50,775 nt of DNA, taken from contig JABEVE010000087.1 of the NCBI GenBank assembly GCA_013044035.1, positions 1-50,775 on the forward strand, given 5' to 3'. The translations under genes were made by a program, and so were the position numbers. The notes under the pieces are model-generated. The model had not been told where the DNA came from, ran no database searches, and worked only from the letters and a program-made list of their open reading frames with translations. Shown here one piece after another: positions 9,583 through 13,500 of the stretch. Numbering within the stretch: position 1 is the first letter of the stretch; each line of letters opens with the position of its first letter. Origin of the DNA: Burkholderiales bacterium (GTDB lineage: Bacteria; Pseudomonadota; Gammaproteobacteria; Burkholderiales; Burkholderiaceae_C).

Positions 9583-10716
9583 TTATGCTGACTTGCGCTT
9601 GCGCCGCGCTTTCACCCCGGCGGCCAATGTGTCCATGAGTTGCACAGACTCGTCCCACGCCAGGCAACCGTCGGTGATGCTCTGGCCGTAGGTCAGGCTG
9701 CTGGCGGCGTCCTTGCCGGGGGTGAATTTCTGCGCTCCGCCGACCAGATGGCTTTCCGCCATGACACCGAAAATGCAGCGCTCGCCAGCCCCCAGTTGGG
9801 CGGCGATGTTCTGCGCCACGTCGAGCTGGCGTTCGGGTTTTTTGTCGCTGTTGGCGTGCGAGCAATCGATCATCAAGCGGCATTCGACCTTCGCCGCCTC
9901 GAGTTGCTCACAGGCTTCGCGCACACTGGCGGCGTCGTAGTTCGGCGCCTTGCCGCCGCGCAGAATGACATGGGTGTCCTTGTTGCCGCGTGTCTGGACG
10001 ATGGCCACCTGGCCGCTCTTGTGCACCGAAAGAAACGAATGCGGCCGGCGTGCCGCCTGGATGGCGTCGATGGCGATGCGCAGGTTGCCGTCGGTGCCGT
10101 TCTTGAAGCCGATGGGCGCCGACAGCCCGGAGGCCAGTTCGCGGTGCACCTGGCTTTCGGTCGTGCGTGCGCCAATGGCGCCCCAGGAGATGAGGTCGCC
10201 GATGTACTGCGGCGAGATCACGTCGAGAAATTCGCTGCCGGCCGGCACCCCCAGACGGTTGATGTCGATGAGCAGTTCACGCGCCATGCGCAAGCCTTCG
10301 TCGATGCGGAAACTCTGATCGAGGTAGGGGTCGTTGATCAGCCCTTTCCAGCCCACCGTGGTGCGCGGCTTCTCGAAGTACACCCGCATCACCACTTCGA
10401 GCTCGCCGGCGTGGCGACGGCGCTCACGCGCCAGGCGCTCGGCGTACTCACGCGCGGCCTTGGGGTCGTGGATGGAGCAAGGGCCGATGACGAGAAGCAA
10501 ACGGTCGTCGTCTGCCTGCACGATGCGGTGCACCGCCTTGCGCGTGTCCTGAATCAGCCGCTCGACCGGCGTACCGGCAATCGGAAAAAAGCGGATGAGA
10601 TGTTCGGGCGGTGGCAGCGGCATGACGTCCTTGATGCGTTCATCGTCGGTGGCCGAGGTCTTCTCGGACGGAGCGGCGCGCCACTCGGGCATCGGGGCAG
10701 TCGACTTCGGGGGCAT
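9583..10716 (-). CDS. aroG: 3-deoxy-7-phosphoheptulonate (DAHP) synthase, class I
   Basis: A 377-residue enzyme that condenses phosphoenolpyruvate and erythrose 4-phosphate to DAHP, the first step of the shikimate pathway. Class I (AroF/G/H) motifs: IGPCSIHDPKAAREYAERL, MRVYFEKPRTTVGWKGLIND, GFKNGTDGNL, HVILRGGKAPNYD, DCSHANSDKKPERQ and GVMAESHLVGG. The ATG at 10716 has AGGAGAAAG just upstream. An in-frame ATG at 10799 with a weaker AAGGAA would add 28 residues with no family similarity. Upstream lie a terminator with T8 (10823-10855) and a 25-codon ORF with an aromatic run, so attenuation by aromatic tRNA charging is likely. Which amino acid inhibits the enzyme itself cannot be told here. 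Confidence 0.95.
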   Translation of the reverse strand: MPPKSTAPMPEWRAAPSEKTSATDDERIKDVMPLPPPEHLIRFFPIAGTPVERLIQDTRKAVHRIVQADDDRLLLVIGPCSIHDPKAAREYAERLARERRRHAGELEVVMRVYFEKPRTTVGWKGLINDPYLDQSFRIDEGLRMARELLIDINRLGVPAGSEFLDVISPQYIGDLISWGAIGARTTESQVHRELASGLSAPIGFKNGTDGNLRIAIDAIQAARRPHSFLSVHKSGQVAIVQTRGNKDTHVILRGGKAPNYDAASVREACEQLEAAKVECRLMIDCSHANSDKKPERQLDVAQNIAAQLGAGERCIFGVMAESHLVGGAQKFTPGKDAASSLTYGQSITDGCLAWDESVQLMDTLAAGVKARRKRKSA

Positions 10717-10822
10717 GGATCTTTCTCCTGGCTGCGTGGAATGCTTGGGCTGCTGCGTCTGCTGCAGGATGGGGGAATGGAAGCGGTCGTCGAACATGGC
10801 GGGGTTCCTTGCCAGCCCGACG

Positions 10823-10855
10823 AAAAAAAACCGCCGGGTTGAGCCGGCGGTTTTT
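10823..10855 (-). promoter_or_regulatory. attenuator-terminator in the aroG leader
   Basis: On the minus strand a 12-bp stem (AAAAACCGCCGG at 10855-10844 with CCGGCGGTTTTT at 10837-10826), loop CTCAAC, is followed by an unbroken run of eight T residues (10830-10823). It lies between the aromatic leader ORF and aroG, 107 bases before the aroG ATG, so it would stop transcription before the gene. Its left arm CCGCCGGC (10850-10843) can instead pair with GCCGGCGG (10903-10896) inside the leader ORF, which would prevent the terminator. On the plus strand the same hairpin has five T residues. Confidence 0.8.
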
Positions 10856-10870
10856 GGGGATTTGATCGTT

Positions 10871-10948
10871 TCAGGCTGAACGCTGCCCTCTCCCTCCGCC
10901 GGCACGGTGCGAGAACCAGAAATAAAAGTAAAAACCGGAATTGAGCAT
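10871..10948 (-). CDS. aromatic leader peptide of aroG
   Basis: A 25-codon ORF, ATG at 10948 to TGA at 10871. Residues 6-12 read FYFYFWF: four Phe, two Tyr and one Trp in a row, after MLNSG and before SHRAGGG. Such runs are the mark of ribosome-stalling leader peptides of amino-acid biosynthetic operons. The stop codon is 16 bases before the terminator stem upstream of the DAHP synthase gene. Codons 16-18 contain GCCGGCGG, the reverse complement of the terminator's left arm. There is no clear Shine-Dalgarno site (the preceding bases are TTTTTCAAACTGCC), which weakens the call slightly. Only sequence logic supports it. Confidence 0.75.
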   Translation of the reverse strand: MLNSGFYFYFWFSHRAGGGRGQRSA

Positions 10949-10973
10949 GGCAGTTTGAAAAATCAGTGAGTTG

Positions 10974-11003
10974 AGTGTAGTCGCGTTCGCGCCGCGGCCG
11001 CAA
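10974..11003 (-). promoter_or_regulatory. possible promoter of the aroG leader transcript
   Basis: On the minus strand TTGCGG (11003-10998), an 18-base spacer and TACACT (10979-10974) resemble a sigma70 promoter. Transcription would start near 10967, leaving about 18 untranslated bases before the leader ATG. The -35 match is only fair. Confidence 0.4.
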
Positions 11004-11130
11004 GCCAGGCTTGGCTGAATTGCAACGCGGGCTTGGGCGGCATCCCGTGCGGACGCGACCAAGCACCGCCCCCTGGAACGCCGCGAGGTGCGCCGATACC
11101 ATCCACGCACAACAGCAGGAGGGAAACCGG

Positions 11131-11961
11131 ATGAGCCAACTCAAAGAGTTGAAATCGATGAGCGATCTCGGCTTTGACGTGGGTGAAGCGCCCAAGCTGG
11201 ACAAGCGCGACACCGCCATCGACTTGCCCGAATTCAGCGGCAAGAACGGGGTCGAAGCAGAACTCGAACAGCTGCGCGAGGACATTGGCGAACGCCAAGA
11301 CCGCATGTTCACCCGCAAGGATCGAGCGCTGCTGGTGGTGCTGCAGGGCATGGACTCGGCCGGTAAGGACAGCACGACCAAGGCCGTATTCACGGGAGTC
11401 AACCCGCTGGGCATGCGCGCGGCGTCATTCAGCTTTCCGACCGCTCTGGAGCAGCGGCACGACTTTCTGTGGCGGGTGCACGCACAGGTGCCCCCGCGGG
11501 GCTGTATCGGCGTGTTCAACCGCAGTCACTACGAAGATCCGGTGATCAATCTCGTACATGAGCAGATCGACACCCCTGAATTCGATCGGCGCCTGGCGCA
11601 GATTGCCGACTTCGAGCGCATGCTGGCGCAGAACAACACGACCATCATCAAGTGCTTCCTGCATATCGGCCATGAGGAACAGCGCGAGCGCCTGCAGGAG
11701 CGTATCGACAACCCGGCCAAACACTGGAAGTTCGATCCATCCGACCTGTCCGAGCGTCGATGGTGGCGCCGCTATCAGGACACCTATGAGGCCGCCCTGC
11801 AACGCAGCAACGCCCGGCATGCTCCCTGGTTCATCGTCCCGGCAGACCGCAAACCCATCCGCAACCTGCTGGTGGCGCGGCTGGTGGTGCGAGCGCTCCA
11901 GGCCATGGACATCCGCGATCCCGACCCGAAACCGGAGCTCAAGGGCTTGAAGGTGGCGTGA
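11131..11961 (+). CDS. polyphosphate kinase 2 family protein
   Basis: A 276-residue PPK2-fold phosphotransferase, which moves phosphate between polyphosphate and nucleotides. It has a Walker A-like GMDSAGKDS, the lid/Walker B region VFNRSHYEDP and RWWRRYQDTYEAAL, all typical. The single-domain length fits class I or III enzymes rather than the two-domain class II; whether it prefers AMP, ADP or GDP cannot be told. The ATG at 11131 follows AGGAGGG; the open frame reaches further upstream without support. It is divergent from the aroG leader and convergent with tldD. Confidence 0.9.
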   Translation: MSQLKELKSMSDLGFDVGEAPKLDKRDTAIDLPEFSGKNGVEAELEQLREDIGERQDRMFTRKDRALLVVLQGMDSAGKDSTTKAVFTGVNPLGMRAASFSFPTALEQRHDFLWRVHAQVPPRGCIGVFNRSHYEDPVINLVHEQIDTPEFDRRLAQIADFERMLAQNNTTIIKCFLHIGHEEQRERLQERIDNPAKHWKFDPSDLSERRWWRRYQDTYEAALQRSNARHAPWFIVPADRKPIRNLLVARLVVRALQAMDIRDPDPKPELKGLKVA

Positions 11962-12033: not shown

Positions 12034-13500
12034 TCAGCCGGTGCCGCCCACGGTCATGCCGTCGATGCGCAGCGTGGGCTGGCCAACGCCGACGGGCACG
12101 CTCTGGCCTTCCTTGCCACAGGTGCCGACGCCCGGGTCGAGTCGCATGTCGGAACCGATGAGACTGACGCGGGTAAGCGCATCGGGGCCGTTGCCGATCA
12201 GCGTCGCCCCCTTGACCGGGTATTGCAGCTTGCCGTTTTCCACCCACCAGGCTTCGCTGGCAGAAAAGACGAACTTGCCACTGGTGATGTCGACCTGACC
12301 ACCGCCGAAGTTCACCGCGTAGAGGCCACGGTCGAGGCTGGCCACGATCTCCTCGGGTGACTTGTCGCCGGCCAGCATGTAGGTGTTGGTCATGCGCGGC
12401 ATGGGCACATGGGCATAGCTCTCGCGCCGCGCATTGCCGGTGGGCTGACGCTTCATCAAGCGGGCGTTGAGGCTGTCTTGCATGTAGTTGACCAACATAC
12501 CGTCCTCGATCAGGACGGTGCGCTGGGTCGGATGGCCTTCATCGTCCATGTTCAGCGAGCCGCGGCGGTTGTCGAGAGTGCCGTCGTCCAGAACCGTCAC
12601 ACCCTTGGCCGCAACTTGCTTGCCGAGCTGGCCGGCGAAAGCGCTGGACCCCTTGCGGTTGAAATCACCTTCCAACCCGTGGCCGATGGCCTCGTGCAGC
12701 AAGATGCCAGGCCAGCCGCTGCCCAGCACGACGGTCATCTCGCCGGCTGGGGCCGGGCGCGATTCGAGGTTCAGCAGCGCCTGGCGCACGGCTTCGTCGA
12801 CATGCTCCTGGACCTTGGCCTCGGTGAATTCACTGAGCGGAAAACGTCCGCCACCCCCAGCCGAGCCGGTTTCGCGCCGGCCATTCTGCTCGGCGATGAC
12901 CGAAAGGCTGAAACGCACCAGCGGGCGCACGTCGGCGGCCAGCATGCCATCCGAGCGCAGCACCATGACCACGTCGTACTCACCGGACAGGCTGGCCATG
13001 ACCTGCGCCACGCGCGGGTCCTTGGCGCGAGCCATGGCGTCGGCGCGCTGGAGCAGGGCCACCTTGGCGGCGGAATCGAGCGAAGACAGCGGGTCGACGG
13101 CGCCGTACAGCGACCGCCCTCCCGTTGCCGGACGCGCCGCGCCGCCAAGCTTGACATGGCCGCGGCCCTGGCGGGCGATGGCACGCACGGTGACTGCGGC
13201 CTCCATCAGTCGCGCTTCTGAAATGTCATCCGAATAGGCGAAGGCGGTTTTATCGCCCTCCACGGCACGAATGCCGAAACCCTGTTCGATGCCGAAGCTG
13301 CCGCTCTTGACCAAGCCTTCTTCCAGACTCCAACCCTCCGAGCGGGTGTATTGCAGATAGATGTCGGCGTAGTCGAGCTTGTGCTCGAACGCACGCGCCA
13401 AGGCGCGCTGCAGGCTGAATTCATCGATGCCGTAGGGAGTCAGCAGCAGGCGGCGTGCTTCGTCGAGGCGCAAGAGGGTGGGTTCGGTCAAGGTATTCAT
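12034..13500 (-). CDS. tldD: metalloprotease TldD
   Basis: A 488-residue TldD, the catalytic partner of TldE/PmbA in a cytoplasmic protease known for degrading CcdA antitoxin and trimming microcin B17 precursor. The metal site HEAIGHGLEGD is at residues 269-279 (HExxxH at 269-274). The C-terminal part has DPGVGTCGKEGQSVPVG, typical of the family. No tldE/pmbA is in the window; the partner is usually encoded elsewhere. It follows moaC by 130 bp, a spacer that holds a short tandem repeat. Confidence 0.95.
   Translation of the reverse strand: MNTLTEPTLLRLDEARRLLLTPYGIDEFSLQRALARAFEHKLDYADIYLQYTRSEGWSLEEGLVKSGSFGIEQGFGIRAVEGDKTAFAYSDDISEARLMEAAVTVRAIARQGRGHVKLGGAARPATGGRSLYGAVDPLSSLDSAAKVALLQRADAMARAKDPRVAQVMASLSGEYDVVMVLRSDGMLAADVRPLVRFSLSVIAEQNGRRETGSAGGGGRFPLSEFTEAKVQEHVDEAVRQALLNLESRPAPAGEMTVVLGSGWPGILLHEAIGHGLEGDFNRKGSSAFAGQLGKQVAAKGVTVLDDGTLDNRRGSLNMDDEGHPTQRTVLIEDGMLVNYMQDSLNARLMKRQPTGNARRESYAHVPMPRMTNTYMLAGDKSPEEIVASLDRGLYAVNFGGGQVDITSGKFVFSASEAWWVENGKLQYPVKGATLIGNGPDALTRVSLIGSDMRLDPGVGTCGKEGQSVPVGVGQPTLRIDGMTVGGTG

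Follow-up and report, generated by a model that had tools for sequence, protein, structure and literature searches.

The window, a stretch of 50,775 nucleotides from the genome of a Burkholderiales bacterium, carries on its minus strand a gene for a DAHP synthase, aroG, preceded by a short leader ORF and an intrinsic terminator. The features of this locus are listed below in the order of the minus strand.

12034-13500, minus strand: tldD, beyond the PPK2 gene.
11098-11961, plus strand: PPK2 polyphosphate kinase gene, the neighbour on the other strand, upstream of the aroG leader.
10979-10974, minus strand: candidate -10 box of the leader promoter, TACACT, weak, read directly.
10948-10871, minus strand: leader ORF, 25 codons plus TGA, MLNSGFYFYFWFSHRAGGGRGQRSA, from the sequence read and the codon map.
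10933-10913, minus strand: proposed stall run FYFYFWF, codons 6-12, seven consecutive aromatic codons, from the codon map.
10915-10888, minus strand: candidate protector hairpin 1:2, UUCUC at 10915-10911 with GAGAG at 10892-10888.
10903-10896, minus strand: antiterminator arm GCCGGCGG, exact reverse complement of CCGCCGGC in the 5' arm of the terminator.
10855-10823, minus strand: intrinsic terminator, stem 10855-10844 with 10837-10826, T tract 10830-10823.
10729-10725, minus strand: AGGAG, Shine-Dalgarno sequence of aroG, read directly.
10716-9583, minus strand: aroG, type I-alpha (AroF/G/H kind) DAHP synthase of 377 aa, by TIGR00034, the proposed regulated gene.

The aroG product scores 510.2 bits against TIGR00034 aroFGH (cut-off 173.2). 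Its score with the AroG-specific model NF006723, 518.9, is under the cut-off of 568, so the letter G serves as a label only; meanwhile, an AroH-named subfamily model is over its own cut-off (491.2 vs 463). With the AroG model below and the AroH-named model above cut-off, the name does not settle the feedback type of the enzyme. By sequence, its start is most likely ATG 10716, behind AGGAG. The source genome (3.7 Mb, 95% complete) contains one AroFGH match, and no type II DAHP synthase was found in it. A second PF00793 match, tried as a second DAHP synthase, was rejected, as it is KDO8P synthase. Judged from the sequence and within this completeness, the leader precedes the only recognised DAHP synthase gene of the genome. 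Elsewhere in the same genome, an ORF MFIHRKHVSGSADRGAWPWRPDSRLADAA with Trp-Pro-Trp and an ATG start lies about 263 nt upstream of the trpE match (L277, G000:C2), below a TTTGCTACAGT box. It is a possible trp leader, and by eye no T-tract terminator is evident there.

According to the codon map, the leader starts at ATG 10948 and stops at TGA 10873-10871, and codons 6-12 read TTT TAC TTT TAT TTC TGG TTC, in which the Trp codon is codon 11, near the antiterminator arm. The preliminary description had reported a 25-codon minus-strand ORF with FYFYFWF at codons 6-12, followed in order by its stop, a stem, eight T and aroG; the codon map confirms the former and the sequence the latter. The frame is open further upstream, as a 79-aa ORF from GTG 11110, and ATG 10948 is taken as the leader start because the relatives start at the equivalent ATG. 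The 25-aa peptide has no match in NCBIfam. The TACACT box, shared with L032, a close relative, has its end 25 nt ahead of the ATG, which predicts a short 5' UTR for the leader RNA of the window; a promoter pattern scan reported no promoter here.

The terminator hairpin (10855-10826) has the sequence AAAAACCGCCGG/CTCAAC/CCGGCGGTTTTT, with eight T at 10830-10823. Its stem of 12 pairs consists of seven G-C and five A-U, and the A-U pairs use five of the eight T. The hairpin previously described as a 12-bp GC-rich stem plus eight T is therefore present, with its composition and the place of five T inside the stem now refined. The terminator rule of our tool reported no terminator at this site, probably because the five A-U stem pairs take up five of the eight T. 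Folding of 10970-10817 gives an only mildly unusual structure (z -1.85), equalled by 11 of 200 shuffles.

The antiterminator arm GCCGGCGG, a part of the anatomy absent from the preliminary description, sits inside the leader ORF and begins 9 nt past the last aromatic codon. From the end of the arm to the leader stop codon there are 22 nt in the window, the median over 88 leaders being 16. In the protector 1:2 stem, 77.2% of the alignment cells pair, with no covariation support (window plus 42 references). As read from the sequence, leader, arm and terminator together are the anatomy of a ribosome-mediated attenuator of the trpL/pheL kind.

For the comparison with relatives, we scanned 201 aroG-upstream regions, comprising 122 rows from genomes of the order (93 of the 120 sampled have an AroG-like gene) and 79 of 80 named loci, a set biased towards close relatives of the window's AroG. 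The regions were oriented by tblastn and scanned over the 350 nt ahead of the AroG match. Short ORFs in which six or more of eight codons are aromatic occur at 83 of the 201 loci, compared with none of the 201 reverse strands and one of 4020 dinucleotide shuffles. When four aromatic codons are allowed, an aromatic run with a terminator is found in 92 of the 201 regions (64 of the 79 named loci and 28 of the 93 genomes), while 65 of the 93 AroG-bearing genomes lack the element at the scanned loci. Among the other 109 loci, the terminator motif is present in two. The motif CCGCC..GGCGG-T follows within 110 nt of the leader stop at 90 of the 93 loci with an aromatic score of at least 5, plus two with score 4; L085, L145 and L164, with score 5 and no fitting terminator after the ORF, are left out of the attenuator count. 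L067, with 16 nt of upstream DNA, is left out of all counts, and L106 (Undibacterium) is counted as lacking the element, its leader-like ORF lying at -592, beyond the 350-nt scan.

This comparison of aroG-upstream regions across Burkholderiales was the check proposed at the outset, with loss of the aromatic codons in relatives as the outcome that would speak against the leader. The aromatic ORF and terminator recur in the 92 regions, and the aromatic codons are conserved across families. The run varies with lineage: FYFYFFW in Burkholderia, Paraburkholderia and Caballeronia, FYFxYFWF variants in Polaromonas, Variovorax, Rubrivivax and others, and FFTGYFYF or FFTAYFYF in Rugamonas and Janthinobacterium. 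In the FYFYFF codons of 13 leaders of the Burkholderia type (5 sequences distinct at the DNA level), the pairwise codon differences comprise 20 synonymous ones and no others. Meanwhile, 24 YFWF(S/P) leaders (12 distinct) show 91 synonymous and 14 other single-base codon differences. Both sets were chosen by peptide pattern, which favours a synonymous excess; with that qualification, we count the apparent codon-level selection on the aromatic run for the attenuator.

We also notice three features of these loci as observations in their own right. At the Polynucleobacter loci L062-L064, and similarly at L010 and L011, no aromatic leader was found by eye, and the short frames ahead of aroG look like the 3' end of tldD, as would be expected if tldD and aroG stood in direct succession. 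Eight of the 28 attenuator genomes have two AroG-like genes, with the attenuator at only one in each. Phe codons in the leaders of 87 loci are TTT (245) more often than TTC (139), a preference that would be unusual if the hosts are G+C-rich and might then keep the aromatic run unstructured.

Of 91 leaders, 41 have an extended -10 box, TGnTAnnnT, whose last base lies 6-9 nt ahead of the ATG, vs 6 of 4550 shuffles; L105, with under 60 nt of upstream DNA, is left out of this count. The 40 box-bearing loci of an earlier list (L033-L073 and others) belong mostly to Comamonadaceae or Sphaerotilaceae where a family is named. Judged by promoter geometry, transcripts from such a box would begin on the AUG or no more than about 3 nt away from it, and these leaders are accordingly expected to be near-leaderless. 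From sequence, we thus predict near-leaderless mRNAs for 41 of 91 leaders, the window not among them. All 91 leaders are without a good Shine-Dalgarno sequence (2-4 of the 6 AGGAGG letters); the best in-frame start of aroG, as the best of several candidates, has 4 or 5 AGGAGG letters in 74 of 79.

The arm is kept along with the run. GG[CT]GG lies 5-24 nt past the aromatic run in 88 of the 92 leaders, compared with 176 of 4600 shuffled spacers. When the whole RNA is folded with no ribosome, the terminator forms in all 88 leaders. If a ribosome is placed on the last aromatic codon and all RNA on its 5' side is barred from pairing, the arm is paired to CCGC(C/T) in 87 of 88; under the same block in the shuffled-spacer control, CCGCC is paired with anything upstream in 184 of 440. 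When only the ribosome footprint is blocked in the nascent RNA of the 88 leaders, the antiterminator forms in 76 with the ribosome on the first aromatic codon and in 64 with it on the last, as against 36 with the ribosome at the stop codon and 39 with no ribosome. The arm-to-terminator duplex has -17.1 vs -11.6 kcal/mol for shuffled sequences (n=71), and singly p <= 0.05 is reached in 47 of 71.

Covariation of the antiterminator rests on one variable pair, examined in an alignment of the window and 42 of the 63 named references, hand-chosen to thin near-copies. This pair is C-G in 22, U-A in 13, U-G in 3 and other in 5 of 43 sequences, and the same variable base within the terminator forms G-C in 26, A-U in 16 and other in 1. 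Across the 88 leaders, 72 pair at the variable antiterminator position. We placed these changes on an AroG tree, which holds the 78 of the 88 arm-bearing leaders whose locus contained a whole aroG and carries a long-branch warning. The tree implies 3 changes at the terminator base and 11 at the leader base; averaged over pairings, the leader base follows in 1.4 of the 3 terminator changes, and the 3' base of the terminator in 3 of 3. The terminator therefore covaries, while the antiterminator rests mainly on kept complementarity and position.

In the window itself, the RNA up to the 5' arm of the terminator was folded with a ribosome on codons 8, 10 and 12, and the antiterminator arm pairs with it at -21.7 to -26.5 kcal/mol. 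This fold barred pairing of everything 5' of the ribosome front, so the empty structure with the ribosome at the stop codon is forced. When the whole RNA is folded, the minimum-energy structure includes the terminator for all ribosome positions tried, hence any switch must be kinetic. With the footprint-only block, the nascent RNA of the window forms the antiterminator in all four states (first aromatic codon, last aromatic codon, stop codon and no ribosome). As modelled, the on and off states of this element cannot be told apart by folding alone, which counts against the attenuator, and the off state would need steric exclusion or a kinetic effect beyond folding. We speculate that a ribosome at the stop codon, between the two arms, may physically hinder their pairing, an effect outside the folding program. 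If the leading edge of a ribosome is taken to lie some 12 nt from the first A-site base, the arm would stay clear of a ribosome on any of codons 6-12 and would begin to be covered from codon 13 onwards.

A covariance model of 43 members (R1) was run over whole genomes. Full-length matches at E <= 5e-8 were obtained in 76 of 300 genomes of the order, one each; the 76 include the window, and further ones may share their species with members of the model. All 76 strong matches lie directly upstream of an AroG-type gene (30 by tblastn, 19 by coordinates, and 27 fetched and checked). In 25 of the 27 fetched matches there is an ORF in which five or more of eight codons are aromatic, and the other two, L264 and L267, have no aromatic run. 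Some match at E <= 0.001 occurs in 130 of the 300 genomes, and our claim is limited to the 76 at E <= 5e-8. Among seven weaker matches that were fetched (E 6.6e-7 to 8.6e-6), only that in G181 precedes aroG; no aroG follows the other six (L271-L276), of which three are full length. A search of 369 genomes across the class revealed four strong full-length matches outside the order (E <= 4.5e-13), all before aroG and in two families, with L236, L237 and L239 in family f63 and L238 in family f68; at three weaker matches (L240-L242) there is no aroG.

No Rfam family reaches its gathering score over the element. The best sub-threshold matches include RF00512 Leu_leader (21.6 of 50 bits) and RF01859 Phe_leader (20.0 of 55), among others that look like chance. 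A blastn search of 10700-11000 against a plasmid collection gave no match.

The leader, arm and terminator, with their order, spacing, conservation and linkage to aroG, are established by sequence and computation. We conclude that the element is very probably a ribosome-mediated transcription attenuator of aroG. The preliminary description had proposed an attenuator, and this reading gains support from the antiterminator arm, the conservation of aromatic codons across families and the aroG linkage of the strong matches. Weighing against it, besides the folding results for the window, are the single variable pair behind the antiterminator covariation, the unsupported 1:2 stem, the only mildly unusual fold of 10970-10817, the 22 nt between arm and stop codon, the poor Shine-Dalgarno matches of the leaders, the two strong matches that show no aromatic run (L264, L267) and the 65 genomes in which the element is lacking at the scanned loci. 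For the mechanism, we infer the promoter, the translation of the leader, the stall, the read-through, the enforcement of the off state in the window and the amino acids that count. Transcription would start shortly before the leader ORF, with a ribosome translating the leader behind RNA polymerase. With enough charged tRNAs, the ribosome would pass the aromatic run and sit on or beyond the arm at 10903-10896; with the arm covered, the terminator at 10855-10823 would form and a short RNA would be released. A shortage of charged tRNA-Phe, and probably one of charged tRNA-Tyr or tRNA-Trp, would stall the ribosome within codons 6-12, with the ribosome's leading edge ending at or before 10903. The arm GCCGGCGG would then stay free and pair with CCGCCGGC once this is made, so that the polymerase would read through into aroG.

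The fullest form of this mechanism is a gate that any of the three amino acids can open, in which too little charged tRNA for any one of Phe, Tyr and Trp would suffice to open the only DAHP synthase gene, by halting the ribosome within one and the same short stretch, replacing the repressor logic of the three E. coli isozymes. The gate would work on near-leaderless mRNAs in Comamonadaceae and their kin, and would be old in betaproteobacteria, reaching some other families of the GTDB class. We put it forward tentatively, being almost as ready to accept it as to doubt it. Alternatively, the same attenuator senses essentially Phe, and the Tyr and Trp codons matter little, which we consider possible while leaning against it. 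The composition of the leaders bears on both. The best eight-codon windows of the 92 leaders hold 382 Phe, 160 Tyr and 64 Trp, so that Phe dominates, and F is present in all 92 peptides. On the other hand, Y is present in 89 and W in 66, and the Trp codon at position 11 in the window is close to the antiterminator, which speaks for roles of the other two. Whole peptides hold F, W and Y in 65 leaders, F and Y in 24, F alone in 2 and F with W in 1; 26 of the 92 are without W, and Trp varies by lineage. In Corynebacterium glutamicum, the aroR leader, with Phe-Tyr-Phe, responds to limitation of Phe and reportedly not of Tyr, according to the available part of the source (PMC11802643), a precedent for sensing Phe alone. 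A Tyr codon without a Tyr response warns against deducing sensing from codons. On the sequence evidence, Phe sensing is thus the safest claim and Tyr sensing is likely. The idea that three end products are sensed at once, raised in the preliminary description, fits the 65 leaders with all three residues, and is weakened by the 26 without W and by the reported irrelevance of Tyr in C. glutamicum.

Two further explanations would replace the uncharged-tRNA signal or the attenuator itself. In nascent-peptide arrest, of the TnaC type, the ribosome would stall in response to a free aromatic amino acid or metabolite, a device that would likewise accord with many aromatic residues close together at a conserved spacing from the arm. 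We regard it as very unlikely, since no fixed peptide is kept: FYFYFWF, FYFAYFWF, FFTGYFYF and FYFYFFW all occur, and only aromaticity is common to them. Moreover, arrest by an end product would presumably induce the pathway when the product is plentiful, the wrong way for a biosynthetic gene. Still harder to believe is a plain terminator upstream of aroG with an aromatic ORF arisen by chance. The aromatic ORF does lie within a longer open frame, and folding of the window alone shows no ribosome-dependent switch, both of which agree with chance. Against it stand the aromatic score, reached so much more often by the loci than by shuffles or reverse strands, the synonymous-only variation of the Burkholderia-type run, and the joint conservation of terminator and arm. 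Besides attenuation in cis, the released RNA (roughly 130-145 nt if its start is close to the TACACT box) or the peptide could act in trans. The rnTrpL/peTrpL pair of Sinorhizobium meliloti offers a precedent in the available text of PMC7298713, while the peptide outside the aromatic run varies widely, and we think such an added role unlikely.

If the attenuator of aroG works as proposed, many betaproteobacteria (judging by the named loci, Burkholderia, Paraburkholderia, Variovorax, Polaromonas, Massilia and relatives) would control the entry step of aromatic biosynthesis otherwise than by the TyrR/TrpR repressors of E. coli, and such repressors may act there too. The element lends itself, as a natural example, to the question whether signals from three tRNAs are integrated in a single stall window. 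Along with the DNA model R1, whose strong matches are all before aroG, it offers a class of leader peptides without Shine-Dalgarno sequences, in part predicted to be leaderless.

We searched the open literature, mostly titles and abstract openings, for a betaproteobacterial aroG element and found none. The main text of PMC2965389 has no mention of DAHP, aromatic or phenylalanine, the available part of PMC5343134 has no mention of an aroG element, and strings such as FYFYF lead in the open literature to unrelated papers only. Within the open literature covered, two things are new: this family in betaproteobacteria, and a run in which Phe, Tyr and Trp occur together (65 of 92).

The classical attenuators are those of E. 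coli pheL-pheA and trpL-trpEDCBA, in which a control-codon leader peptide precedes an antiterminator and a terminator that share segments. Each of them senses one type of amino acid and controls a terminal branch, whereas the aroG element precedes the first shared step. Similar in its mode of working is the aroR leader peptide of C. glutamicum, by which the aroF operon is attenuated, as reportedly described by Neshat et al. in 2014. We compare the two by description. Both have Phe and Tyr leader codons upstream of a DAHP synthase gene, with ribosome-mediated attenuation reported for aroR (PMC11802643, PMC4046766) and proposed for the aroG element. In the available text of these sources, however, aroR differs in belonging to another phylum, in its Phe-Tyr-Phe with no Trp mentioned, and in that aroF is one of two DAHP synthases.

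In Acholeplasma, the uORFC-13-1 motif is a predicted uORF with one or more Phe codons and a terminator upstream of the DAHP synthase gene aroF (PMC8632094). As far as the available text goes, this motif differs from the aroG element: it is a prediction only, from another phylum, with 24 representatives, at least one Phe codon and another structure. Attenuation of E. coli aroF was hypothesised earlier, as cited in the available parts of PMC8632094 and PMC2659441. Control of DAHP synthase genes by repressors instead of leaders holds for E. coli and does not extend to C. glutamicum, where attenuation is reported, or to Acholeplasma, where it is predicted.

The trpL RNA of S. meliloti (rnTrpL) begins with the leader ATG (PMC7298713, available part). 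It shares with the 41 of 91 aroG leaders their predicted 5' end at or near the AUG, and differs in being a Trp leader upstream of trpE(G) in an alphaproteobacterium, and from the window in that a short 5' UTR is predicted for the latter. An earlier listing of the aroG element is possible; by its anatomy, it appears to be an attenuator that is distinct from the described families in its sequence, its lineage and its run of three aromatic residues.
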